From positions 62,001-126,000 of the forward strand of contig NZ_CP084260.1 in NCBI RefSeq assembly GCF_022879575.1: DNA of 64,000 nucleotides. Reading direction: 5' to 3'. Source of the DNA: Caballeronia sp. SL2Y3. Its GTDB lineage: Bacteria > Pseudomonadota > Gammaproteobacteria > Burkholderiales > Burkholderiaceae. The notes beneath the pieces were generated by a model, which had not been told where the DNA came from, did no database searches, and was given only the letters and a program-made list of their open reading frames with translations. How positions within the stretch are numbered: position 1 is the stretch's first letter; the number at the start of each line of letters is the position of its first letter. This document shows positions 877 to 54,111 of the stretch, in pieces. Both the position numbers and the translations under genes were made by a program.

Positions 877-3800
877 TCACTTCGCGACGACCACCGGAAT
901 GCCCTTCAGCGACGACGCGCCTTTCATCGCTTCGATGGACGCGCGCACGGCATCGCCCGTCGCCGCCTCGATGCCGAGCCGCGCGACGAGTTCGCGCTCG
1001 CTGCGTTTGACCATCGCGAGATTCGCGAGCTTCACGTGACCGTAGCCGCGCACGCGCTCGAAGAGCGCGGCGAGCGCCGCGACATCCTTGGCGTTGGCGG
1101 CGTCGAGTTTGGCGAGCGCGCGCTGCATCGTGATTTCGTAGTCCTTGGCGAGTTGGCGTTCCATGCGGCGTTCGAGCGTTCTGCCGAACGGATCGAGAGC
1201 CGTGCCGCGCAGCGCGCGCAGCTTCGACAGGCCGCCGAGCACCGGCCACATCCACTGGCCGAAGGTTTTCTTCTTCGGCGCGCCGTGCGACAACGCGGGC
1301 GGCGCGAGGTTGAACTTCACGGTGTAGGCGTCGCCGGGCGCGCCTTCGAACTGCGCGGCGAGCGCCGCGCGGAACGCCGGGTCCGCGTGCAGGCGCGCGA
1401 CTTCGTATTCGTCCTTCACCGCGAGCAGCTTGTAGAACGTGATCGCCACGGCGCGCTTCACGTCTTCATTGACCGACGCCTGCGCGATCAGCGAACGATA
1501 TCGCTCGACGTGTTTCGCGCCGCCGTACGCGCGAAGCCGTTGCTCGCGGTCACGGATCAGATCCGCAAGCGGCATGTCCGCCATCGCGACGCGCTTCTGC
1601 TGCGCTGAGGACGCGAGCGCATCGAGCGCATTCATATCCGCCGCCGCGAGCCGGCCGATCGCGAAGGCCAGCTTGTTCGCGGCGACCGCCACGTTGTTCA
1701 GTTCGAGCGCGCGCATCAACGCGCCGTGCGACACGGGCACGAGCCCGAGTTGCCACGCGAAGCCGAGCATCACGATATTCGCGCCGATGGTGTCGCCGAG
1801 AAAGCGCGTCGCGAGCGCTTGCGCGTCGCAGGTTTGCAGGGCATCGGCGGCATCCGCGCCGGCCGCGTGGCGCATCTTGTCGAGCAGCGCGTCGGCGTGC
1901 AGATTGGCGTCCGGGTTCTGCACGAAGCTCGCGTTCGGAATGGCGTGCGTGTTGACGACGATCTTCGTCCGGTCATGCCGCACCGTTTGCAACGCTTCGG
2001 GACTCGCGCCGACGACCATATCGCAGGCGAGCAGCAAGTCGGCCTGCTGGGTGTCGATGCGCACTTGGTTAAGCAGCGGGTCCTCGCTCGCCACGCGCAC
2101 GAACGACAGCACCGAGCCGCCTTTCTGCGCGAAGCCCATGAAATCGAGCACCGACGCGCTCTTGCCCTCCAGATGCGCCGCCATGCTGATGAGCGCGCCG
2201 ACCGTGACGACGCCCGTGCCGCCCACGCCCGTCACCAGCATGTCGTACGGCGCGTGATCGAGATGCGCGCGCGGCGGCGGCAGCGCATCGACGCGGCGCG
2301 CAAGTTCGGCGGGATCGAACGCGTGGCCGTCCGCTTTCTTCAGCTTCGCGCCTTCCAGCGTGACGAAGCTCGGGCAGAAGCCGTTCACGCACGAATAGTC
2401 CTTGTTGCACGACGACTGATCGATGCGGCGCTTGCGTCCCAGTTCCGTTTCGACCGGCTCGACGGAAAGACAATTGGACTGCACGCCGCAATCGCCGCAG
2501 CCTTCGCACACAGCTTCGTTGATGAAAAGGCGCTTGTCCGGATCGGGGAACTCGCCCTTCTTGCGGCGGCGGCGCTTTTCGGCGGCGCACGTCTGGTCGT
2601 AGATCAGCACGGTCACGCCGGGCGTTTCGCGCAGGCGGCGCTGCACGGCATCCAGTTCGCTGCGGTGATGAAAGGTCGTGCCGCGCGGGAACTGGTCTTC
2701 GTGGCCTTCGTACTTCTCGGGCTCGTCGCTGACCACGACCAGCAGCGCGATGCCTTCCGCCTCCACTTGCCGCGCGATCTGCGGCACGGAAATGCTGCCG
2801 TCGACCGGCTGGCCGCCCGTCATCGCGACGGCATCGTTATAGAGAATCTTGTACGTGATGTTGGCTTTCGCGGCCACGGCCTGACGGATAGCGAGAATGC
2901 CCGAGTGAAAGTACGTGCCGTCGCCGAGATTCTGGAAGACGTGCGGCGTCTTTGTGAACATCGCGTGCGAAGCCCAGTCGACGCCTTCGCCGCCCATCTG
3001 AATGAGGCCGGTCGTGTCGCGCTCCATCCACGACGCCATGAAGTGACAGCCGATGCCCGCCTGCGCGACCGAGCCTTCCGGCACATTCGTCGACGTGTTG
3101 TGCGGGCAGCCCGAGCAGAAGTAGGGCGTGCGCTTCACGGCATCGGCGATATTGGACAGAATCTGCGGCGCGACGAGATCGACCACTTTGTCGCGGCGGT
3201 CGAGCGCCGGCTTGTGGCGCGCGAGCCATTGCGCGAACACCGGCAGCACGCGCGAGGGCCGCAATTCGCCGAGCGCGGAGAGCAGCGGCGCGCCGTCCTG
3301 CGTCGTCTTGCCGATCACGACCGGCCGCGCGCCTTGCGCGCGGTTGTACAGATGATCCTTGATCTGCTGCTCGACGACCGGCCCCTTCTCCTCGATCACG
3401 AGCACTTCCGCGAGCCCTTCGACGAACGCATCGAGGCGCGTGGTTTCGAGCGGAAACGACAGCCCGACTTTGTAGATGCGCACGCCGGCGGCGTCCAGAT
3501 CGTCCACGGTCAGGTCGAGACGGCGCAGCGCCTCCATCAGATCGAGATGCGCCTTGCCGCACGTCACGATGCCGACGTTCGCAAGCGGACTCGGCGCGAT
3601 CCACTTGTCGATGCTGTTGGTCCGCGCGAAGTGGCGCACGGCGTCGAGCTTCGCGTGCAGGCGCGCTTCGATCGTGAGGCTCGGCAAATCCGGCCAGCGG
3701 TTATGCAGGCCGCCCGGCGGCGGCGTGAAGCCATCGGGCGCGGTCCAGTCGGTCTTCAGCGCATCGAGATCGACGGTCGAGCCGGATTCGACCGTCTCGG

Positions 3801-4455
3801 AAATGGCCTTGAAGCCGACCCACGCGCCCGAAAAGCGCGAGAGCGCCCAGCCGTACAGCCCGAATTCGAGCATGTCCGCCACGTTCGACGGATTCACCAC
3901 CGGCATGTGCCACGCGATCATCGCCTGATCGCTTTGATGCGGCATCGACGACGAGACGCAGCCGTGGTCGTCGCCCGCCACGACGAGCACGCCGCCGTGC
4001 GGAGACGAGCCGTACGCGTTGCCGTGCTTGAGCGCGTCGCCCGCGCGGTCCACGCCCGGACCCTTGCCGTACCACATCGCGAAGACGCCATCGACGGTGC
4101 GCTCCGGATCGCTCTCGACGCGCTGCGTGCCGAGCACGGCGGTGCCGCCGAGTTCTTCGTTGATCGCGGGCAGAAAGCGCACGTCATGCGACGCGAGCAG
4201 CTTTTTCGCCTTCCACAGTTGCTGATCGACCATGCCGAGCGGCGAGCCGCGATAGCCGCTAATGAACCCGGCCGTGTTCAGATGCGCGGCGCGGTCGAGC
4301 GCGCGCTGCATCAACACGAGACGCACCAGCGCCTGCGTGCCCGTCAGAAAGATTCGGCCGCCCGTGGCGCTCAGGTTGTCGGCGAGTTGATAGTCGGACA
4401 GCGCGGGTTCGTTGAGGCGAGGCGACAGGGCATCGGCGGGGACGCGTGCGTTCAT
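877..4455 (-). CDS. indolepyruvate ferredoxin oxidoreductase, fused large form
   Basis: Predicted 1192-residue single-chain 2-oxoacid:ferredoxin oxidoreductase, converting aryl pyruvates such as indolepyruvate to acyl-CoA with ferredoxin as electron acceptor. The N-terminal third carries GYRGSPLG and the pyrimidine-binding part. The middle has SGCPHNTS and GGEGVDW, typical of the thiamine diphosphate domain. A ferredoxin-like insert with CEGCGDCGVQSNC and a further CNKDYSC follows. The last part is the gamma-type domain starting near VTGVGGTGVVTVG. This size and order match the fused proteobacterial form rather than the archaeal IorA/IorB pair. The ATG at 4455 was preferred because conserved sequence begins just after it; the frame stays open for 31 more codons upstream but those look non-coding. 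It is monocistronic here and probably works in aromatic amino acid catabolism. Confidence 0.93.
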   Translation of the reverse strand: MNARVPADALSPRLNEPALSDYQLADNLSATGGRIFLTGTQALVRLVLMQRALDRAAHLNTAGFISGYRGSPLGMVDQQLWKAKKLLASHDVRFLPAINEELGGTAVLGTQRVESDPERTVDGVFAMWYGKGPGVDRAGDALKHGNAYGSSPHGGVLVVAGDDHGCVSSSMPHQSDQAMIAWHMPVVNPSNVADMLEFGLYGWALSRFSGAWVGFKAISETVESGSTVDLDALKTDWTAPDGFTPPPGGLHNRWPDLPSLTIEARLHAKLDAVRHFARTNSIDKWIAPSPLANVGIVTCGKAHLDLMEALRRLDLTVDDLDAAGVRIYKVGLSFPLETTRLDAFVEGLAEVLVIEEKGPVVEQQIKDHLYNRAQGARPVVIGKTTQDGAPLLSALGELRPSRVLPVFAQWLARHKPALDRRDKVVDLVAPQILSNIADAVKRTPYFCSGCPHNTSTNVPEGSVAQAGIGCHFMASWMERDTTGLIQMGGEGVDWASHAMFTKTPHVFQNLGDGTYFHSGILAIRQAVAAKANITYKILYNDAVAMTGGQPVDGSISVPQIARQVEAEGIALLVVVSDEPEKYEGHEDQFPRGTTFHHRSELDAVQRRLRETPGVTVLIYDQTCAAEKRRRRKKGEFPDPDKRLFINEAVCEGCGDCGVQSNCLSVEPVETELGRKRRIDQSSCNKDYSCVNGFCPSFVTLEGAKLKKADGHAFDPAELARRVDALPPPRAHLDHAPYDMLVTGVGGTGVVTVGALISMAAHLEGKSASVLDFMGFAQKGGSVLSFVRVASEDPLLNQVRIDTQQADLLLACDMVVGASPEALQTVRHDRTKIVVNTHAIPNASFVQNPDANLHADALLDKMRHAAGADAADALQTCDAQALATRFLGDTIGANIVMLGFAWQLGLVPVSHGALMRALELNNVAVAANKLAFAIGRLAAADMNALDALASSAQQKRVAMADMPLADLIRDREQRLRAYGGAKHVERYRSLIAQASVNEDVKRAVAITFYKLLAVKDEYEVARLHADPAFRAALAAQFEGAPGDAYTVKFNLAPPALSHGAPKKKTFGQWMWPVLGGLSKLRALRGTALDPFGRTLERRMERQLAKDYEITMQRALAKLDAANAKDVAALAALFERVRGYGHVKLANLAMVKRSERELVARLGIEAATGDAVRASIEAMKGASSLKGIPVVVAK

Positions 4456-4711
4456 GGTTGTCTCGTTCTTTGAATGTGAGGCGGGTCTGTGAGGCGATAC
4501 ATCATTCTTTGTCACCGAAAGCGGAATGTTTTTTCGCACTCGCTTCAATTCGGCAGGTGTTGAGAAACGACGCAGGCTTTTTCGATATAAACGGGAGAAA
4601 TCTGCTCGATCTGGGCGCGCGTCGGCGTAAACCCGCAGCCGTGCCGCTCACGTGGCGGCGCTGATTGGGACTAACCTGGTCGCTTTCGAAAATGAGAGAA
4701 GGCCGACGCCG

Positions 4712-5350
4712 ATGAAACTTTTCTACTGGCCGAAGACGCGCGCATTTCGCGCGCTGTGGATGCTCGAAGAACTGCGCGAGCCGTATGAACTGGCGTTCGT
4801 GAACATACGCGCGGGCGCGCAGAACGAAGCCGCGTTCAGCCGCGTGAACCCGATGTCGAAGCTCCCCGCGCTCGACGACGGCGGCGTGCGCGTGGCCGAA
4901 TCCGGCGCGGTGCTGCTCTATCTGGCCGACCGCTTTCCGGACGCGCGTCTGGGCGCGCCGCTTTCGGACCCGGCGCGCGGCCGGTTCCTGCAATGGATGT
5001 TCTTCACCGGCTCATGCCTGGAACCGGCGATGGCCGAGCGCATGACCGGCGCGCAGGGCAACACCTTCAGCTTCGGCTGGGGCGATCTCGCGCGGGTGGA
5101 GCACGCGATCGAAAGCGCGCTCGAAGAAGGGCCGTGGCTGCTCGGCGAGCCGTTCACCGCCGCCGACATCCTGCTCGCGAGCACGCTGCAGATTGCGTTC
5201 GTCGCGAGGCTGATCGAGCCGCAAGGCGTGCTCTTCGATTATGTCGAACGGGCGGTAGCGCGCGAAGGCTACGAGCGCGCGGCCGCGATCGATCATCGCG
5301 AGGCGGAGCGCCTCGGACTCAGGCCGCACCCGAAAATGCCGGTGGATTGA
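4712..5350 (+). CDS. glutathione S-transferase family protein
   Basis: Predicted 212-residue cytosolic GST. The N-terminus (MKLFYWPKTRAFRALWMLEE) is a thioredoxin-like GST_N domain, followed by SKLPAL with the cis-proline loop and ESGAVLLYLADRF, which contacts the glutathione glutamyl group. The C-terminal half is helical, with GEPFTAADILLA matching the GST_C N-capping box. The ATG at 4712 has a GAGAGAAGG ribosome-binding site; an upstream in-frame ATG at 4652 lies before the conserved fold and is less likely. The substrate cannot be told from sequence. It is transcribed divergently from the indolepyruvate oxidoreductase gene. Confidence 0.88.
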   Translation: MKLFYWPKTRAFRALWMLEELREPYELAFVNIRAGAQNEAAFSRVNPMSKLPALDDGGVRVAESGAVLLYLADRFPDARLGAPLSDPARGRFLQWMFFTGSCLEPAMAERMTGAQGNTFSFGWGDLARVEHAIESALEEGPWLLGEPFTAADILLASTLQIAFVARLIEPQGVLFDYVERAVAREGYERAAAIDHREAERLGLRPHPKMPVD

Positions 5351-5358
5351 GCGCAGAG

Positions 5359-5604
5359 TCAGGGAAACGCGCGGGGCTTCGGAATGCCCGCGCCGGCGTC
5401 GATGTCCGCGACCGCGCGCAGGTGCGCGAGCTGAATGGCTTCGTGGGACGTCGGCAACCCGTCGTCGCCGCCGACTGTCTTCCAGTCCTGCACGGCTTTG
5501 TCCAGATGGCGAATCTCGTACTCGGCGTCCCAGCGCGGGCCCTGAAGCTCGATCGGCCGCACGTGGATGGAATAGACGCCATATAGGAAGACCTGGTCCG
5601 GCAT
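5359..5604 (-). CDS. small conserved hypothetical protein
   Basis: An 81-residue soluble protein that I do not recognise. It has no signal peptide, membrane segment or cysteine motif. The start at 5604 is supported by a strong GGAGGG ribosome-binding site; the frame continues upstream but without coding character. It lies 47 nt downstream of another small gene on the same strand (5652-5873), and the two probably form one transcript. It converges with the GST gene with almost no spacing. Function unknown. Confidence 0.7.
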   Translation of the reverse strand: MPDQVFLYGVYSIHVRPIELQGPRWDAEYEIRHLDKAVQDWKTVGGDDGLPTSHEAIQLAHLRAVADIDAGAGIPKPRAFP

Positions 5605-5651
5605 GTCGCCCTCCGATGCAGTGGACGGCGCTGGCGCCGTCTTTCCCCCAG

Positions 5652-5873
5652 CTACAGTTCGATTTCCCCGAGGATGCGGTGCGCGAGCGCCCGCGCTTCG
5701 TCGAGTGCTTCGTGCTCGTTCTCCGATGCCGCTTCCACTTCGTAGAGCGTCGCGTCGGGCTGCTCGCCGTCGTCGCGCGAGAGCGAGACGAGCCCCTGGA
5801 ACTTGCCGCCGTCGATGGCCCGCACGCCGATCGTCGCGGTGTAGATGCCTTTCGTGTAGGTCGTGTCTTCCAT
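5652..5873 (-). CDS. small conserved hypothetical protein
   Basis: A 73-residue acidic protein. The sequence looks like alternating beta strands (YTATIGVRAIDGGKFQGLVS) followed by an acidic helix rich in Glu and Ala. The ATG at 5873 has GAGGCG at a suitable distance; the upstream in-frame TTG at 5903 is weaker. I do not recognise a named family. It is the first gene of a likely two-gene unit with 5359-5604. A perfect 8-bp inverted repeat lies about 30 nt upstream of its start and may be its operator. Confidence 0.72.
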   Translation of the reverse strand: MEDTTYTKGIYTATIGVRAIDGGKFQGLVSLSRDDGEQPDATLYEVEAASENEHEALDEARALAHRILGEIEL

Positions 5874-5902
5874 GATGGATTCGCCTCTGGCCCAAGGACT
5901 CA

Positions 5903-5920
5903 AGCATGAAAATTCATGCT
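5903..5920. promoter_or_regulatory. operator-like palindrome upstream of the small gene pair
   Basis: AGCATGAAAATTCATGCT has two perfect 8-bp arms around an AA centre and sits 30 nt ahead of the start at 5873. The spacing and symmetry fit a dimeric repressor site. No regulator gene is adjacent, so the cognate protein is unknown. Confidence 0.4.
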
Positions 5921-5975
5921 AGCACGCGGTCATGCGCCGCGTGTGACTGCGGCGCGCCCGAATCCGCGCTTGAGT

Positions 5976-6887
5976 CTAGCCGAGCAATTCCTCGACCTCG
6001 TCGAGCGACGGCGAATGCGCGCCCGAATGACGGCACGCCGCCGCGCCCGCCGCGAGAGCGAACTTCAGATGGTCCGGCCAGCCGCCGTGACGCGCCATCA
6101 GGCTATAGAGCAGCCCGCCGATGGACGCGTCGCCTGCGCCGACCGTATCCGCCACCTCGATGACCGGCGGACGCGCGCTGAACGCTTCATCGCCGGCATA
6201 GAGCGTCGCTTCCGACGAGCCCCGCGTGACGAGCACGGTGGCTTGCGCATTCATCGCGCGCAGTTGCGCGAGCGCGTCTTCTTCGGGAATGCCGCGAAAC
6301 AGCATGTGCAGGTCTTCGTCCGACACCTTGATGAGATCGGCGAGGCTCGCCATGTTGCGCAGGATCGGCTCGTAGCCGTGCTCCATCAGGTTGCGGTAGT
6401 TCGGATCGAAACTGATCTTCACGCCGTGTTCGCGCAGTTTCGCGGCCAGCGCGGCGAGCGTCGCGCCGAGCGGCTGGCGCACGAGGCTGATGCAGCCGAA
6501 GTGCGCCCACTTCACGCGCTCCATCCAGCCTTGCGGCAGCTTCTCGGGATCGAAGGCGAGATCCGCGCCGTTTTCGCCCATGAAGTAGTACGTCGGCGGC
6601 TGCGTCTTGTGGACGATGGCGAGCAGCGGCGGACGCTCGACGCGCTGCATGAAGCGCATGTCGAGGCCCGCGGCGACGCTCGCCTGCCAGAGGTCGTCGG
6701 AGAAATTGTCGGTGCCGAGCGAGCCGGCGCACGCGGTCGGCAGGCCGAGCCGGGCGACGGCGCGCGCGACGTTCCAGCCCGCGCCGCCCGGACGCGACAG
6801 CCAGCTGGACTCGCCGGTGCGGATGAGGTCAGTGAGAATGTCGCCGGCCGAGACGAACTGCGGAAAAGTGGTGTGATCGGTTGCCAT
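5976..6887 (-). CDS. PfkB-family carbohydrate kinase (fructokinase-like)
   Basis: Predicted 303-residue ribokinase-like sugar kinase. PfkB signature 1 (PGGAGWNVARAVARLG) lies near residue 33. Signature 2 (DTVGAGDASIGGLL) near residue 250 contains the anion hole and the catalytic aspartate of GAGD. It is the last gene of a lacI-AGE epimerase-pfkB operon, starting 5 nt after the epimerase stop. An AGE-type mannose isomerase next to a fructokinase-like enzyme suggests a mannose to fructose to fructose 6-phosphate route; that is inference from context. Substrate specificity within PfkB cannot be read reliably from motifs. The frame extends upstream of 6887 but only inside the epimerase gene. Confidence 0.9.
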   Translation of the reverse strand: MATDHTTFPQFVSAGDILTDLIRTGESSWLSRPGGAGWNVARAVARLGLPTACAGSLGTDNFSDDLWQASVAAGLDMRFMQRVERPPLLAIVHKTQPPTYYFMGENGADLAFDPEKLPQGWMERVKWAHFGCISLVRQPLGATLAALAAKLREHGVKISFDPNYRNLMEHGYEPILRNMASLADLIKVSDEDLHMLFRGIPEEDALAQLRAMNAQATVLVTRGSSEATLYAGDEAFSARPPVIEVADTVGAGDASIGGLLYSLMARHGGWPDHLKFALAAGAAACRHSGAHSPSLDEVEELLG

Positions 6888-6892
6888 CGTGC

Positions 6893-8155
6893 TTACCGTG
6901 AGTTGTGCGGCGAGGCGAGCGCGTTCAGCACTTCGTAGCACGCGCCCATGGTGTGGTAGTCGGTCTTGCCGGCGGGACTCTTTTCGTCGCCGTACTTGCG
7001 GTTGTCGCAGGTCAGTATGCGATACCACGCGCCGTAGCGGTGATCGACGAAATGCGCCCAGCTATAGCGCCACAGTTCGTCATAGCAGTCCCAGAAGCGT
7101 TCGCTGCCGGTTCGCGCGCCGAGCAGCGCCGCCGCCGCGAAGCTCTCGGCCTGCACCCAGAAGTACTTGTCGTGGTCGCAGATGCTGTCGTCGGGGCCGA
7201 AGCCGTAGTACAGGCCGCCGTGCTGGTCGTCCCACGCGCGCGAGAAGCCCGCGTCGAACAGTTCGATGGCGCGCGGCGCGAGCCACGGCAGCGCCCGATG
7301 CCGTTCCAGAATCAGCAGCAGCTTCGCCCATTCGGTCTGATGCCCCGCCTGAAAGCCCCACGGCCGGAAGATGTTGGAGCTGTCCGATTCGTTGTAATGC
7401 CAGTCCACCGACCAGTCGCGATGAAAATGCTCCCACACGAGGCCGTTCGACAGCCGAGCCTGCCGCAGCGTGATGTTGCCCGCGATCTTCTCGGCGCGGT
7501 CGAGGTACAGCAGGTGGCCGGTCGCCTCGTAGGCCGCGAGCAGCGCTTCGGTCGCGTGCATGTTCGCGTTCTGCCCGCGGTAGTCCGAAAGCTGCCAGTC
7601 GGGCGTGGCTTCGTCGGCGTATAGACCCGCTTCCGCGTCCCAGAAGCGGCGTTCCATCAGCGCGAACGTTTCGTCGATCAAGGGCCGCGCTTCGTCGATG
7701 CCCGCCATGGCCGCATGCGCGCACGCGAGCAGCACGAACGCCATGCCGTAGCAATGGCGCGTGCCGTCGAGCGTGCGTTTCTGGCCGTCGCGCCACTCGA
7801 TTTCCCAGTCGTAGCCTTCGTGTGCGGCGTCCCAATGCGCGTCGCGCAGGAAACGGAACGCGTGGCGGGCGTCGTCGAGGAATTGCGCATCGCCGAAGTG
7901 CCGATACGCCATCGCGTAGTTGAAGACGAAGCGCGTGCTGCTGACGAGATGGCGCCTCGTGCGGTCGTAGACGGTGCCGTCGTCCTTGAAGAAGTGGAAG
8001 AAGCCGCCGGACGGATCGCGGCCGGTCGGCGCGTAGAAGGCGAGCGTGTCGCGGACGTGCGAAAGCAGGAAGTCGCGGCTGCGGAAGTCGATTCCGCCTT
8101 CCGGCGCTTCCCCCGGGACGACGGCGGCGACGGCGGCCGAAGCGGTCATGTTCAT
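6893..8155 (-). CDS. AGE-family epimerase/isomerase (possible D-mannose isomerase)
   Basis: Predicted 420-residue enzyme of the N-acylglucosamine 2-epimerase superfamily, an (alpha/alpha)6 barrel. Family features include RFVFNYAMAYR near residue 75, GQNANMHATEALL around residue 200 and RPWGFQAGHQTEWAKLLL near residue 280, carrying His residues expected in the active site. Length is normal. The start overlaps the stop of the upstream lacI gene as ATGA, so the two are probably translationally coupled. With LacI control and a PfkB kinase downstream, a catabolic sugar isomerase is more likely than an amino-sugar epimerase. No transporter gene is linked in the window. Confidence 0.88.
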   Translation of the reverse strand: MNMTASAAVAAVVPGEAPEGGIDFRSRDFLLSHVRDTLAFYAPTGRDPSGGFFHFFKDDGTVYDRTRRHLVSSTRFVFNYAMAYRHFGDAQFLDDARHAFRFLRDAHWDAAHEGYDWEIEWRDGQKRTLDGTRHCYGMAFVLLACAHAAMAGIDEARPLIDETFALMERRFWDAEAGLYADEATPDWQLSDYRGQNANMHATEALLAAYEATGHLLYLDRAEKIAGNITLRQARLSNGLVWEHFHRDWSVDWHYNESDSSNIFRPWGFQAGHQTEWAKLLLILERHRALPWLAPRAIELFDAGFSRAWDDQHGGLYYGFGPDDSICDHDKYFWVQAESFAAAALLGARTGSERFWDCYDELWRYSWAHFVDHRYGAWYRILTCDNRKYGDEKSPAGKTDYHTMGACYEVLNALASPHNSR

Positions 8156-37797: not shown

Positions 37798-38021
37798 GGG
37801 TTCTCCGGTCGGCGCGAGCGCGCTTTCGCGCGCTGCGTGAATCACACAGCGTTTGTTCTTTTTGCTCGATGAATCCGGTCGCGCGATGCCGAGCAAGCAC
37901 CGCGCCCGCGCGCGTAGATTAGCGAACGCGCGGGCTCGCGACAACGATCGGTTGCGCATACCGATATGCGGCGCTGTCTGCGTCGGCTTGCCGAACGCGA
38001 CGCGTCACGCTACACTGCCCC

Positions 38022-38129
38022 CGTCTTTGGGGAGTAGCCTTCCTTCCGTTGCGAAGGAGAACGCGTCAACATCCTCGGCTCTAATGCCGTGGCGCGTTCG
38101 ACCGGTCCGGTTTGGCGAGACCACTGATG
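38022..38129 (+). ncRNA. manganese riboswitch (yybP-ykoY family)
   Basis: The two conserved internal-loop elements are present: TTTGGGGAGTAGCC at 38026-38039 and TTTGGCGAGACCACTG at 38111-38126, matching the GGGGAGUAG and GCAAGACC-like loops of this Mn2+-sensing class. Between them are stems CCTTC/GAAGG (around 38039-38057) and AACGCG/CGCGTT. The sequence lies 160-270 nt upstream of a cation exchanger gene, the usual context for metal efflux control. Identification is from pattern recognition; the exact P1 boundaries are approximate. Confidence 0.9.
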
Positions 38130-38144
38130 TGCCACGTCGTTCTT

Positions 38145-38188
38145 GGTCGGACGTCGCGTGGCGCATCATGGTTCGCTGACGTCCGACC
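38145..38188 (+). promoter_or_regulatory. long hairpin downstream of the Mn riboswitch (expression platform candidate)
   Basis: GGTCGGACGTC at 38145-38155 and GACGTCCGACC at 38178-38188 are perfect 11-bp inverted arms with a 22-nt loop. There is no T run, so it is unlikely to be an ordinary terminator. It lies between the aptamer and the start codon and may switch structure or control translation. Confidence 0.55.
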
Positions 38189-38291
38189 GTGGAATCATCG
38201 TGTCCCCACAACTCCAACATCTTCTTGTCGCGCGCCCGGGCCTTCGCGTGGTCCGCGCGCTGTCGCTGCATCGTGTCGTGCGAGGTGCCGC

Positions 38292-39302
38292 ATGACGATG
38301 CTTTTCCTCGAACTCGCGTTGATGCTCGCGATCATTCTGATTGCCTCCGAGCTTTTCACCAACGCGCTCGAACATCTCGGCGAACGCCTCGGCATTTCGG
38401 AAGGCGTGACCGGATCGCTTTTCGCGGCAGTCGGCACGGCGTTGCCGGAAACGACAGTGCCGATCATCGCGCTCTTGGGCGGCACGGCGAGCCGCGCGGT
38501 CAACGAAGAGATCGGCGTCGGCGCGATTCTCGGCGCGCCGCTCATGCTCGCGACGCTTTCGACGTTCCTGATGACGCTCGCCATCGTGAAATCGCGCGGC
38601 TTGCGCGGCGTGATCGAGCCGGAGCGCAGCGGCTTCACGCGCGACCTCAACTTCTTTCTGATCGCGTTCCTGATCGCGGCCGGCGCGATGTTCGTGCCGC
38701 ATCACGCATGGCAAGTGCGTGCGCTGTTCGCGGCGGGGCTCGTCGGTCTGTACGTGATCTATGTGATCTCGACGTTCAGGGCATCGGCCAATCTCGTCGA
38801 AAGCGGACACGGCACCGAAGCGCCCGAAACGCTCTTCATCTCGCGCGTCGGATTGAAGACGAACCTCGGCTCGATCATGCTGCAATTCCTGATCGGCATC
38901 GTGTTGCTGGTGGGCGGCGCGAAGGGCTTCATTCACGGCGTCGAAGGCGTCTCGCAGGTGCTCGGCGTCTCGGCGCTGCTGCTGTCGCTCATCATCATCC
39001 CGATTGCGACCGAACTGCCCGAGAAGGTGAACAGCATTCTGTGGGCGCGGCGCGGCAAGGACACGCTCGCGTTCGGCAACATTACCGGCGCCATGGTGTT
39101 TCAGGGCACGTTGCTGCCGTCCATCGGCATCATGCTGACGCCGTGGGAGCCGCGCGTCGAAGTGCTGACGGGCGTGCTCATCACGCTCGCGGCGGCGGCG
39201 TGGCTGCGTTTTCATGCAAGAGGGAAGGGCGTCGCGTTGTGGGCGCTGCTCGGCAACGGCGTGCTGTACGCGGCGTATCTGACGTTGACGCTCGGCCGGT
39301 GA
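38292..39302 (+). CDS. CaCA-family sodium/calcium-type cation exchanger
   Basis: Predicted 336-residue inner membrane exchanger with about ten hydrophobic segments in two inverted repeats. The alpha-repeat signatures are visible: GSLFAAVGTALPETTVPIIA near residue 45 and PIATELPEKVNSILWA near residue 240, each with acidic residues that bind cation. The Mn2+ riboswitch upstream suggests manganese (or calcium/manganese) efflux. ATG at 38292 has GAGGTG upstream; ATG at 38298 is an alternative. The leader is long (over 250 nt). Confidence 0.9.
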   Translation: MTMLFLELALMLAIILIASELFTNALEHLGERLGISEGVTGSLFAAVGTALPETTVPIIALLGGTASRAVNEEIGVGAILGAPLMLATLSTFLMTLAIVKSRGLRGVIEPERSGFTRDLNFFLIAFLIAAGAMFVPHHAWQVRALFAAGLVGLYVIYVISTFRASANLVESGHGTEAPETLFISRVGLKTNLGSIMLQFLIGIVLLVGGAKGFIHGVEGVSQVLGVSALLLSLIIIPIATELPEKVNSILWARRGKDTLAFGNITGAMVFQGTLLPSIGIMLTPWEPRVEVLTGVLITLAAAAWLRFHARGKGVALWALLGNGVLYAAYLTLTLGR

Positions 39303-39321
39303 TACCTCGTCGCGCGCCAAT

Positions 39322-39346
39322 AAAAATGCCCGCACGAGGCGGGCAT
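39322..39346 (-). terminator. intrinsic terminator of the fliD-fliT unit / predicted sRNA
   Basis: On the minus strand ATGCCCGC-CTCGT-GCGGGCAT is followed by a T run. It ends the fliD-fliT transcript and would form the 3' end of the predicted small RNA. Confidence 0.88.
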
Positions 39347-39394
39347 CGAGAGCGAAGCTGCGTCATCACATCGACGCTTGGTTGTTGTTGTTAG
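39322..39394 (-). ncRNA. predicted sigma-28-dependent small RNA downstream of fliT
   Basis: A sigma-28-type promoter (39400-39426) overlaps the fliT stop codon and points away from any gene. The predicted ~70-nt transcript begins near 39394 with an unstructured ACAACAACAACCAA stretch. It then has a small hairpin (GCGTC/GACGC, 39360-39377) and ends in a strong terminator hairpin with TTTTT. This arrangement fits a stand-alone flagellar small RNA or a 3'-UTR-derived one. No transcript evidence is available; the call is inference. Confidence 0.55.
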
Positions 39395-39399
39395 TCTAT

Positions 39400-39426
39400 A
39401 TAACGGCGCGGGACAGCGAAACTTTA
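39400..39426 (-). promoter_or_regulatory. sigma-28 (FliA) promoter at the fliT stop codon
   Basis: On the minus strand TAAAGTTT, exactly 11 nt, then GCCGTTAT. The -35 element is identical to that of fliC and the spacer has the same length. The TAA of this element is also the fliT stop codon. Confidence 0.7.
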
Positions 39427-39723
39427 GAGCCGCGCCGTTTGTTGATAACGGCTTGCCGCGTCGATGCGCGCGGTCGCCTCGCGAAAGTTCTTGCCGAGCG
39501 ACATGCGCGCGGCTTGCGCCGTCTGCATCAGCGCGGCATCGAGCGTCTGAATGTCGCTCGCCGCCTGCAACGTCGCCGGATCGAGGTCGTTCTGCAAGCG
39601 CATGATGATCGGCGAACGCAGTTCGGACAGGCGCGCGGCTTCGATCCAGTCGCCTGCGGCTGCGGCTGCGGCCATGGCGCGCGTGAGCGATACCGCGTTG
39701 GTCAGCATGTCTTGTTGGCTCAC
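39424..39723 (-). CDS. fliT: FliT-like flagellar chaperone
   Basis: A 99-residue helical protein 33 nt downstream of fliD. Its size, Ala-rich helices and position after the filament cap gene fit FliT, the FliD export chaperone. Sequence resemblance alone is weak, so the call rests mostly on context. No fliS gene lies between fliD and this gene. Its stop codon overlaps a sigma-28-type promoter. Confidence 0.72.
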   Translation of the reverse strand: MSQQDMLTNAVSLTRAMAAAAAAGDWIEAARLSELRSPIIMRLQNDLDPATLQAASDIQTLDAALMQTAQAARMSLGKNFREATARIDAASRYQQTARL

Positions 39724-39756: not shown

Positions 39757-41199
39757 TTACTTGTTGGTCGCGAGCGCGCCGGCGCTGTTCGTGCCGCCGA
39801 AAAGCTGCGTCAGGTACGTCGTGTTGCTTTGCATCGTCGCCATCAGCGTGTTCAACGCCGTGAACTGCGCGTTGTATTGCGACGTGAGGCTGTCCGCGTA
39901 GGTCTGCAGCTTCGCCGTCTGATCGGTCAGGCTCTTCAGGTCCGCATTGATCGCGGTCGTGCGCGTATCGATGATGCCGCCCGACTGCAGGAACGACGTG
40001 ATCTTCGAATTGAGCTGCGTGCCGATGCCGTTCGTCTGGTTGAAGAGCTGACCCACGCGCGTCGCGCTGTTCGAGAGCGCCGTGGAGAGCGTCGAATCGT
40101 CGATGGACAGCGTGCCGTCGTCCTGAAGATCGATGCCGATCGACGCGAGGTTCGTCGATGTCGACGTCGAACCGGAGCCGGAATTCACGCCGCTCGTGAT
40201 GATGTTGGACAGCGTGCTCTGAATGCTCTGAAGCATGGCGTCGCCGAGCAGCGCGCCGCCCTGCGAGCCGGCTTTTTTCGTGGAGTCGAACGACGACAGC
40301 GCCGCAGCCTGGCTCACGAACGAGTTGTACGCGTCGACGAATGCCTTGATCGTGCTCTTTTCCGTGGTCGTGTCGGACGAGACGGTCAACGTCTGCGTCG
40401 ATCCGGCCGCAGCCGATGCCAGATTCAGCGTCACGCCGCCGATCGCGGTCGTGAGCGTGTTGGTCGAGCTGGTGACGGCCGTGCCGTCGACCGTGAGCGA
40501 CGCGTCCTGCGCCGCCGACGTCTGCGTGTAGTTGCTGCTGCCCGCGCTGTACGAAAGCGACGAGTCGACGCCTGCGCCGGCCGTGACCGAAATGGTGTTG
40601 GCGGCGCCCGTCGTCTTCGACGCGAGCACGAGATGCTGACCGTCGTTGCCCGTGACGATGGTCGCGCTGATGCCGGGGTTGTCGCTCGCCGAATTGATCG
40701 ACGAGGCGATGCTCGCAAGCGTGTCGGTGCCGTCGAGCGTCACGTTCATCGAACTCGATCCGAGCGAGAGCGACAGCGTGCCTGTGCCGAAGGTGTCGGT
40801 GGCGGCGTGCGCAGTCGACGAAATCTTTTGCGCGCTTGCGATGTTATTCACCGTCACCGCATACGAACCGGCCACCGCGCTCGTGCCTGCCGTCGCCGTG
40901 AGTCCGCTGCCGCTCGCCGTCGCCGTGTACGCGGCGAGTCCGGTGCCGTCGGAAAGACTCTTCAGCGAGGTTTGCAGCGACGACAGCGCGGACTTGATCT
41001 GCGAGACGGCGGACAAGAGCGTGTTGTCGCTCGCCGTCTTGTTGGCGATGTGCGTGGCCTGAGCGGTGGTTTTCGCGGTGACGAGCGAGGAGACCAGCGA
41101 GGAAACATCGAGCGTGGAACTCGTCGCGCCGCTGATGATGGACTGCGCGGCAGCGGCCAGTGTGGCGCTGACGTCGGTACTCGAGGTGGTGGTGGTCAT
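39757..41199 (-). CDS. fliD: flagellar hook-associated protein 2 (filament cap)
   Basis: Predicted 480-residue filament-capping protein that helps flagellin fold at the filament tip. The N-terminal FliD_N domain begins SSTLDVSSLVSSLV, the central part is Ser/Thr/Ala-rich with beta-repeat character, and the C-terminal domain (from about residue 270, TEKSTIKAFVDAYNSFV) ends in coiled-coil heptads. It has no cysteine. Transcribed with fliT, about 150 nt downstream of fliC; two hairpins lie in that gap. Confidence 0.94.
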   Translation of the reverse strand: MTTTTSSTDVSATLAAAAQSIISGATSSTLDVSSLVSSLVTAKTTAQATHIANKTASDNTLLSAVSQIKSALSSLQTSLKSLSDGTGLAAYTATASGSGLTATAGTSAVAGSYAVTVNNIASAQKISSTAHAATDTFGTGTLSLSLGSSSMNVTLDGTDTLASIASSINSASDNPGISATIVTGNDGQHLVLASKTTGAANTISVTAGAGVDSSLSYSAGSSNYTQTSAAQDASLTVDGTAVTSSTNTLTTAIGGVTLNLASAAAGSTQTLTVSSDTTTEKSTIKAFVDAYNSFVSQAAALSSFDSTKKAGSQGGALLGDAMLQSIQSTLSNIITSGVNSGSGSTSTSTNLASIGIDLQDDGTLSIDDSTLSTALSNSATRVGQLFNQTNGIGTQLNSKITSFLQSGGIIDTRTTAINADLKSLTDQTAKLQTYADSLTSQYNAQFTALNTLMATMQSNTTYLTQLFGGTNSAGALATNK

Positions 41200-42270: not shown

Positions 42271-42297
42271 ATTTCGGCCCACGGGAAAGAAACTTTA
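42271..42297 (-). promoter_or_regulatory. sigma-28 (FliA) promoter of fliC
   Basis: On the minus strand TAAAGTTT, an 11-nt spacer (CTTTCCCGTGG), then GCCGAAAT. This is a near-consensus flagellar class 3 promoter, giving a 5' leader of roughly 85-90 nt. Confidence 0.9.
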
Positions 42298-42377
42298 GGC
42301 CGAAGATCGAATGCGATTCGAATTTTCACGGAGTCTGCCGGCGCCTTGGCCGGCAGGGCTTAAAAGCAATTACGGCC

Positions 42378-42409
42378 GGGCCGGCTACACCTTTACAGGC
42401 AGCCGGCCC
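42378..42409 (-). terminator. hairpin after the HAD-type gene, possible terminator
   Basis: GGGCCGGCT and AGCCGGCCC form a perfect 9-bp stem with a 14-nt loop just past the stop of the large HAD-type gene. The nearest TTTT lies about 10-18 nt beyond the stem on the minus strand, so termination strength is uncertain. Confidence 0.5.
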
Positions 42410-53163: not shown

Positions 53164-53784
53164 AACGTGACTCTCCTGAGTGGCCGCTGTCGGCGCGGTC
53201 GGCGCCGGTGGGGCCATGAAAGCTGTTGTGTGGACACCGCGATGGCGCTCCGGTCGAGCGTTGCGCGATGCCATTCGGGCGGGCCGCGGTGTGTCGCTCA
53301 CGCCGCCCAAAGATCGGCCCGGCTCTCGACCGGGTTATCCCTTACGTTCATTATCGGGATCGAGAGCGGCATTTCACGTCATTTTTCAATCGCTTAACCT
53401 TGTTACAGCGCGAAACACCGGCTGTTACGAAGTCAAAAATTGCACTCAAGCGGTCGAAGGAGACGATTTCTACTGGCAATGCGAGCGGCGAGGCACCCGA
53501 TAGCAGGCCGCGTGCCCGGGCAACCTCAAGTCCGTCTGGCCGCTGCCGATAAAGGCTTTTGCCGACGCGAGAGCGAATTCGACCGCGCATGTACGAACTT
53601 TTCCTACACGAATTCGGGCGAAAGTCTGTCGGCGCGTCGGCAGGTTTTTCCGATGGTCGCGACAGTCGCGCTGCCGGAAAATCGGGCCGACAACACGAGC
53701 GGGGCCGGATGCGTCGGGAATCGGCGTGTGCGAGCAAACGTTTCCCGCTGGGCCTGACCAGCCACGCAACGACTCGGGGGAAAG
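53164..53784. other. 621-nt divergent control region between glycosyltransferase gene and flhD
   Basis: A long gap that should contain promoters for both genes. It has two TGTTAC copies 19 nt apart near 53401-53430, AT-richer sequence around 53375-53450, and GGGGGAAAG directly before flhD. A large regulatory region is expected for a flagellar master gene, but I could not assign specific sites. Confidence 0.5.
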
Positions 53785-54111
53785 ATGACGGCCACCACCA
53801 TAAGCACGCTCGCGGAGATCCGCGAGGTGAAGTTGTCGTACGTGCTGCTCGCGCAGCGGCTGCTTCGGGAAAACCGCGTCCTGGCGATGCATCGCCTCGG
53901 GCTGTCAGAAGAGGTGGCCGAGATCGTGTCGTCGTTGACGCCGGCGCAGGCGGTGAAGATTGCGGCGTCGAGCCATGTGCTGTGCCGCTTCCGCTTCGAC
54001 GACCACGCGATCCTCGCTTCGCTTGCCGACAAGGCCAAGCGCCCGGCGCTCGCGCAGGCGGACGCGGCGGTCGAAAGCGGCGAGGTCGCATCGACGAGCG
54101 AGTGCGTCTAA
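53785..54111 (+). CDS. flhD: flagellar transcriptional activator subunit FlhD
   Basis: Predicted 108-residue helical regulator that with FlhC activates class 2 flagellar genes. IREVKLSYVLLAQRLLRENR and a Cys-containing HVLCRFRFDDH segment match FlhD. GGGGGAAAG lies directly ahead of the ATG. The next gene should be flhC, but only 223 nt without a matching frame separate flhD from motA. So either flhC lies elsewhere or this FlhD acts without it. Confidence 0.92.
   Translation: MTATTISTLAEIREVKLSYVLLAQRLLRENRVLAMHRLGLSEEVAEIVSSLTPAQAVKIAASSHVLCRFRFDDHAILASLADKAKRPALAQADAAVESGEVASTSECV

Follow-up and report, generated by a model that had tools for sequence, protein, structure and literature searches.

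The 3' end of the fliT gene in Caballeronia sp. SL2Y3 raises the question of whether it merely closes a flagellar mRNA or also gives rise to an RNA with a promoter of its own. We addressed this within the window, by which we mean the whole 64,000-nt stretch of DNA analyzed, and across related genomes. The flagellin gene and fliD precede fliT here, and a convergent gene lies beyond it. The 99-aa ORF covers the whole Pfam FliT profile (E value 8.4e-6) at 26.9 bits, slightly below the cut-off of 29.5, and the closest named relative found, Caballeronia sp. GAFFF1, encodes a FliT that is 96% identical. The genes and promoter elements concerned are the following, in window coordinates:

39757..41199, minus strand: fliD, upstream of fliT
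39424..39723, minus strand: fliT, 99 aa, assigned by the Pfam FliT profile
39419..39426, minus strand: sigma-28-type −35 element TAAAGTTT, opening with the three bases of the fliT stop codon; six of its eight columns are invariant in 39 Caballeronia genomes
39408..39418, minus strand: 11-nt spacer CGCTGTCCCGC, fixed in length and free in sequence, with 35 distinct versions in the 39 genomes
39400..39407, minus strand: sigma-28-type −10 element GCCGTTAT, five of eight columns invariant in the 39 genomes
38226..39302, plus strand: Na/Ca-exchanger-family ORF, the convergent and conserved far-side neighbor (exact start codon tentative)

The original prediction had placed a −35/−10 pair exactly 11 nt apart on the minus strand, with its TAA serving as the fliT stop codon, and by coordinates this is exact: TAAAGTTT occupies 39426-39419, 11 nt follow, GCCGTTAT occupies 39407-39400, and the TAA at 39426-39424 within the −35 element ends the 99-aa ORF. 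The accompanying claim of a terminator downstream of this box, with no gene between, also agrees with the DNA, where a gene-free interval leads to a nine-pair stem at 39347-39325 with a T-rich tail.

Scored against the textbook consensus, the box at the end of fliT is the top sigma-28-type site of the window (15 of 16), followed by sites upstream of fliC and of an ORF that we take to be motA from its position and size, each scoring 14 of 16. The box pattern at up to three mismatches occurs five times in the window vs 0.11 expected, the sole exact copy being the fliT-end site itself, from which the pattern was derived, so that this excess is by construction. In the 5.5-Mb genome, 12 sites, the fliT-end box among them, deviate from TAAAGTTT-N11-GCCGATAA at no more than two positions, and at up to three mismatches, 48 sites are found vs 21 for a backwards control. 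The genome encodes one copy of FliA above the family cut-off. Two weaker sigma-28-like sites were also seen in the window: one of 12/16 at 42369-42395 (minus strand), which precedes the fliC site (42271-42297) by about 70 nt, and one of 13/16 at 53526-53552 (plus strand), upstream of the probable flhD ORF at 53785; such a site would be unexpected for a master regulator.

We used a covariance model (R1) built from 18 RNA bodies picked by FliT homology, with the promoter left out. R1 matches 44 of 58 Caballeronia genomes at E ≤ 0.001, once per genome, and two of the 44 (G124 and G177) have a weak second match elsewhere at E ≤ 0.01. Just upstream of the RNA, beginning 28-33 nt before the model match, 39 of these 44 genomes carry the box, with scores of 14-16 of 16 and a spacer of 11 nt in every case. 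Eighteen of the matching genomes supplied the training sequences of R1; outside that set, the box is present in 25 of 26 RNA-bearing genomes. Over the 39 genomes, the core does not vary in 11 of its 16 columns. Upstream scores in the five RNA-bearing genomes without a box are 7-9 of 16, and no site of at least 11 was found in up to 600 nt before their RNA. Among the 14 R1-negative genomes, two (G154 and G167) have a box after fliT and the other 12 have none over the stretch read by eye. Altogether, 41 of 58 genomes have the box and 17 do not (5 with the RNA and 12 with no match). A −35/−10 pair conserved among close relatives was the test proposed with the original prediction, and the pair is indeed kept in these 41 genomes, despite 35 different spacers in the 39. 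Its reading of the locus as a flagellar sRNA likewise gains support at the level of sequence, as box and RNA are conserved as a unit, including where fliT is not adjacent (see below).

Some loci below the model threshold are of interest in their own right. G154 keeps the box after fliT with a partial RNA that is missing the terminator, and G167 keeps the box with a diverged RNA. Nine large Caballeronia genomes (L159-L167) have a diverged 3'UTR after fliT, several with an ACAACAA stretch and with a terminator-like end of the form CACCCCGG...CCGGGGTG or similar.

The predicted RNA is divided into the following parts, its start being placed, with an uncertainty of about 3 nt, by a conserved A that lies 34 columns past the first T of the −35 element:

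39319..39392, minus strand: predicted sRNA of about 74 nt (covariance-model match 39397-39319)
39381..39392, minus strand: 5' tail of A-R-N triplets, (AAC)4, a candidate Hfq distal-face site by triplet-run statistics
39360..39377, minus strand: hairpin 1, a GCGUC/GACGC stem, from covariation
39348..39359, minus strand: unpaired linker AGCUUCGCUCUC, a candidate base-pairing seed, from the alignment
39325..39347, minus strand: intrinsic terminator stem-loop of nine pairs
39319..39324, minus strand: T-rich tail

The 74-nt RNA folds with a z score of −2.6 relative to shuffled sequences, of which 2 in 200 fold equally well; hairpin 1 is part of the centroid fold and is absent from the minimum-energy fold. 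It was entered manually into R1 on the basis of folds of single sequences; structure prediction on the first MAFFT alignment yielded the terminator only and did not recover hairpin 1. In the covariance alignment of the 44 Caballeronia sequences (43 distinct), the two helices have 97.8% of their cells paired, and 5 of 14 pairs are changed on both sides, with hairpin 1 contributing 3 of its 6 pairs; these counts come from alignments fitted to the given structure and thus lean toward it, for which slid partners and shuffles served as controls. Sliding the partners by one to three columns lowers pairing to 24-64%, and for the structure as a whole, no shuffle out of 500 attains either the count of double-changed cells or the covariation score. 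A set of 29 sequences from other genera (28 distinct) gives a similar picture: 97.6% of cells are paired, 4 of 14 pairs are double-changed, hairpin 1 again has three of six pairs double-changed, and 0 of 500 shuffles equals the double-changed cells or the covariation score, with 5 of 500 equaling the pair count. By a weaker measure, that of further pair types, 11 of 500 shuffles score as high for Caballeronia and 277 of 500 for the other genera.

A-R-N triplets bind the distal face of Hfq, for which this genome has two genes. The longest A-R-N run averages 5.1 triplets over the 44 genomes vs 2.3 in shuffles, and at least six triplets are present in 18 of the 39 box-bearing genomes, with tails reaching eight; the RNA in the window has four, a length attained by 4% of shuffles. 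The linker is C/U-rich and conserved across much of the box-bearing clade. Many Caballeronia rows have a GCUUCGCUCU-like linker, which differs in C. grimmiae and in sordidicola-type rows, a pattern that lends no support to one conserved target.

On this basis, we consider it likely that the locus encodes a late-flagellar sRNA, an RNA of about 75 nt made by FliA, starting after fliT and acting through Hfq binding and base pairing. The transcript itself, its sigma-28 dependence, and its binding to Hfq and to other RNAs are what we infer from these sequence features. FliA (sigma-28) holoenzyme would initiate shortly after the stop codon of fliT, and the transcript would end at the intrinsic terminator. 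The resulting RNA would consist of the A-R-N 5' tail, a hairpin, an unpaired GCUUCGCUCUC linker, and the terminator with its U-rich end. Tail and U-rich end probably bind Hfq, and the linker, a plausible pairing seed, would pair with mRNAs. As a member of the late flagellar class, such an sRNA would signal active FliA.

Searches for these mRNAs were made in two ways. Duplex energies were calculated between the RNA, minus its terminator, and the start regions of genes predicted in the window with a G+C-position heuristic, up to 58 in number, with starts close to either window end left out; the query had one wrong 5' base, upstream of the predicted start. Among the 15 best results and five flagged flagellar starts, the best z score was −2.9, which is not significant for that many tests. 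The flagged flagellar starts in the window did not stand out (fliC at −1.2, the other four at +0.5 to +1.5), and two genes that we presume from their position to be cheA and cheW scored −2.1 and −1.8, respectively. An exact 11-mer complement of the linker occurs at four other sites in the genome, giving a total of five vs six for the backwards control, and none of these sites is a clear start-codon target; at one of them, L190, a short ORF may begin at an ATG 18 nt downstream.

This outcome bears on an alternative in which the RNA is real and sigma-28-dependent but mainly occupies or titrates Hfq rather than pairing with specific mRNAs. The absence of a hit in the target searches would fit such a role, as would a tail of up to eight triplets, a size near 75 nt like that of FlgO in Escherichia coli, and a linker that varies between clades. 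A titrating RNA would sit less easily with a C/U-rich linker conserved in much of the box-bearing clade and with a hairpin 1 that covariation upholds, and we regard this alternative as unlikely, though worth keeping in mind.

A more conservative explanation is that the locus holds nothing beyond the 3'UTR of the fliD-fliT mRNA with its terminator, the box being a stop-codon coincidence and the RNA having no life of its own. The relation of the unit to fliT itself is informative here. An ORF ending at the TAA of the box, or at a nearby stop where the box is lacking, matches FliT in 36 of the 44 genomes, and in one genome (G152) fliT has an internal stop. In 7 of the 39 box-bearing genomes, fliT is not directly upstream, and the box and RNA are nonetheless retained; fliT lies 5-7 kb farther up the same contig in five of these and on a different contig in one, and no fliT was found in the remaining assembly (G183; 3.8 Mb, 96% complete). 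The separated cases fall into at least three lineages on the tree described below (G139/G151/G155; G124; G181 and G183), with a further separated case, G189, too short to be placed. Across the seven genomes, the RNA bodies have a mean identity of 75%, vs 28% for the 60 nt before the box. A box retained only as a stop codon would not persist apart from fliT, and the persistence of box and RNA without an adjacent fliT argues for an independent transcription unit.

In C. catudaia, large ORFs lie between fliT and the RNA unit, glycosyl- or methyltransferase-like as judged by eye. Intervening ORFs in this interval were recorded at L117 (positions 1700-7300), glycosyl- or methyltransferase-like by eye there, and also in G151, G155, G189, and G181.

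Beyond Caballeronia, the picture changes. At E ≤ 0.01, R1 matches 81 of 299 genomes of the family, Caballeronia counted. At the stricter limit of E ≤ 0.001, there are 31 matches outside Caballeronia; 29 are situated 17-79 nt after the stop codon of fliT, and the box is absent from all 31 loci, where the best nearby score is 10/16 and a search of up to 700 nt upstream of the RNA gave no site of at least 12. The two matches not beside fliT (G310 and G198) were taken as chance. Matches with E values between 0.001 and 0.01 number 20; at least one of these, in G055, lies about 30 nt beyond its FliT match. The 29 fliT-linked matches come from two genera, g11 (18 genomes) and g20 (11 genomes), which are probably Burkholderia and Paraburkholderia. 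Within g11, the RNA body averages 86% identity, vs 48% for the preceding 28 nt and 36% for the following 80 nt; the g20 values, in the same order, are 69%, 34%, and 49%. The values for the body are favored by the fact that the model picked it.

That the RNA body follows fliT without a box at these loci is what a plain operon end would look like, and a terminator is expected there anyway. Within Caballeronia, this explanation would leave unaccounted for a box conserved around a free spacer in 39 genomes, its retention with the RNA in the seven genomes in which fliT is not adjacent, and a conservation of hairpin 1 and tail that exceeds what termination needs, and we judge it improbable. The unit at the end of fliT is very probably a real motility RNA.

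The convergent neighbor could also be thought to matter. The exchanger signature is found beside the RNA unit in 40 of the 44 genomes, with similar sequence beside the other four, but an antisense RNA directed against the 3' end of the exchanger gene is highly implausible, since the conserved part is the RNA itself and in this genome a strong same-strand terminator with a T-rich end stops transcription ahead of the stop codon of the exchanger gene. A bidirectional terminator shared with the exchanger gene was also considered and set aside, the exchanger-sense strand having no T run after the stem. Separately, a manganese riboswitch (yybP-ykoY, 73 bits) is found at 38017-38184 on the plus strand, shortly upstream of the exchanger ORF that ends at 39302.

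The exchanger gene provided a rooted tree on which to place the promoter, with 56 rows comprising 52 Caballeronia and 4 outgroup sequences (G165, G174, and G189 were dropped as too short; G182, G166, and G167 were not entered). On this tree, 15 box-less genomes form one clade, and the sister clade of 37 has the box in 36, the exception being G157; support for the fork of the 37 is 89/62. Most simply, one gain and one loss of the box suffice, and an older gain followed by loss in the sister clade may also account for the pattern. Where it was looked for, the promoter is confined to one Caballeronia clade, and the RNA body is more widespread than the promoter. Our preferred history, which we hold only a little more firmly than not, is that in one Caballeronia clade a sigma-28 promoter, its −35 element lying on the fliT stop codon, was gained by an older RNA of the fliT 3'UTR, which elsewhere is presumably released from the fliD-fliT mRNA. 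The RNA would thereby have become a late-flagellar sRNA transcribed on its own, and several lineages would later have split promoter and RNA from fliT while keeping both.

With respect to known RNAs, no family in Rfam 15 reaches its gathering score at the RNA locus. Of the matches below threshold, the best are asX2, at 23.5 of 70 bits and on the opposite strand, and isrB, at 15.8 of 35 bits and on the same strand. In the open-access literature searched, no description of a fliT-linked sRNA was found. The nearest counterparts are found in E. coli, where processing of flagellar mRNAs yields FliX and FlgO, UhpU is transcribed from a sigma-28 promoter located within uhpT, and Hfq occupation or titration has been suggested as the role of FlgO (PMC10578931). 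As described there, UhpU resembles the predicted Caballeronia RNA in coming from the 3'UTR of a protein-coding gene and in having a sigma-28 promoter to itself at that gene's end; it differs in its metabolic host gene, uhpT, and in its length of about 260 nt, from which a 60-nt form is processed (PMC10578931). FlgO, compared by its description, is similar in size (about 75 nt), in its origin in the 3'UTR of a late flagellar gene (flgL), and in sigma-28 control, whereas it is processed from its parent mRNA and the Caballeronia box would supply a promoter of its own (PMC10578931). Within the family, the Burkholderia cenocepacia ncS RNAs are likewise short and intergenic. Among them, ncS16 starts independently within a 3'UTR, and the available text, Table 1 included, mentions no RNA linked to fliT (PMC5688073). 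That sRNAs tune the flagellar cascade outside the enterobacteria as well, in a different phylum, is stated in the available text of PMC10578931.

Sigma-28-dependent and flagellar 3'UTR sRNAs are a known kind, of which the fliT-linked RNA would be a new example. The sigma-28-dependent ones are best described from enterobacteria, with flagellar sRNAs also described from Campylobacter; if the reading given here is true, late-flagellar sRNA feedback extends to the Burkholderiaceae. The genus comprises symbionts of plants and insects, for which motility is presumably relevant to host colonization. That one RNA occurs in sister clades both with and without a promoter of its own allows the origin of 3'UTR sRNAs to be tested directly, and if the promoter was indeed gained as proposed, a switch in sRNA biogenesis could be placed on the tree, with living species of both types.
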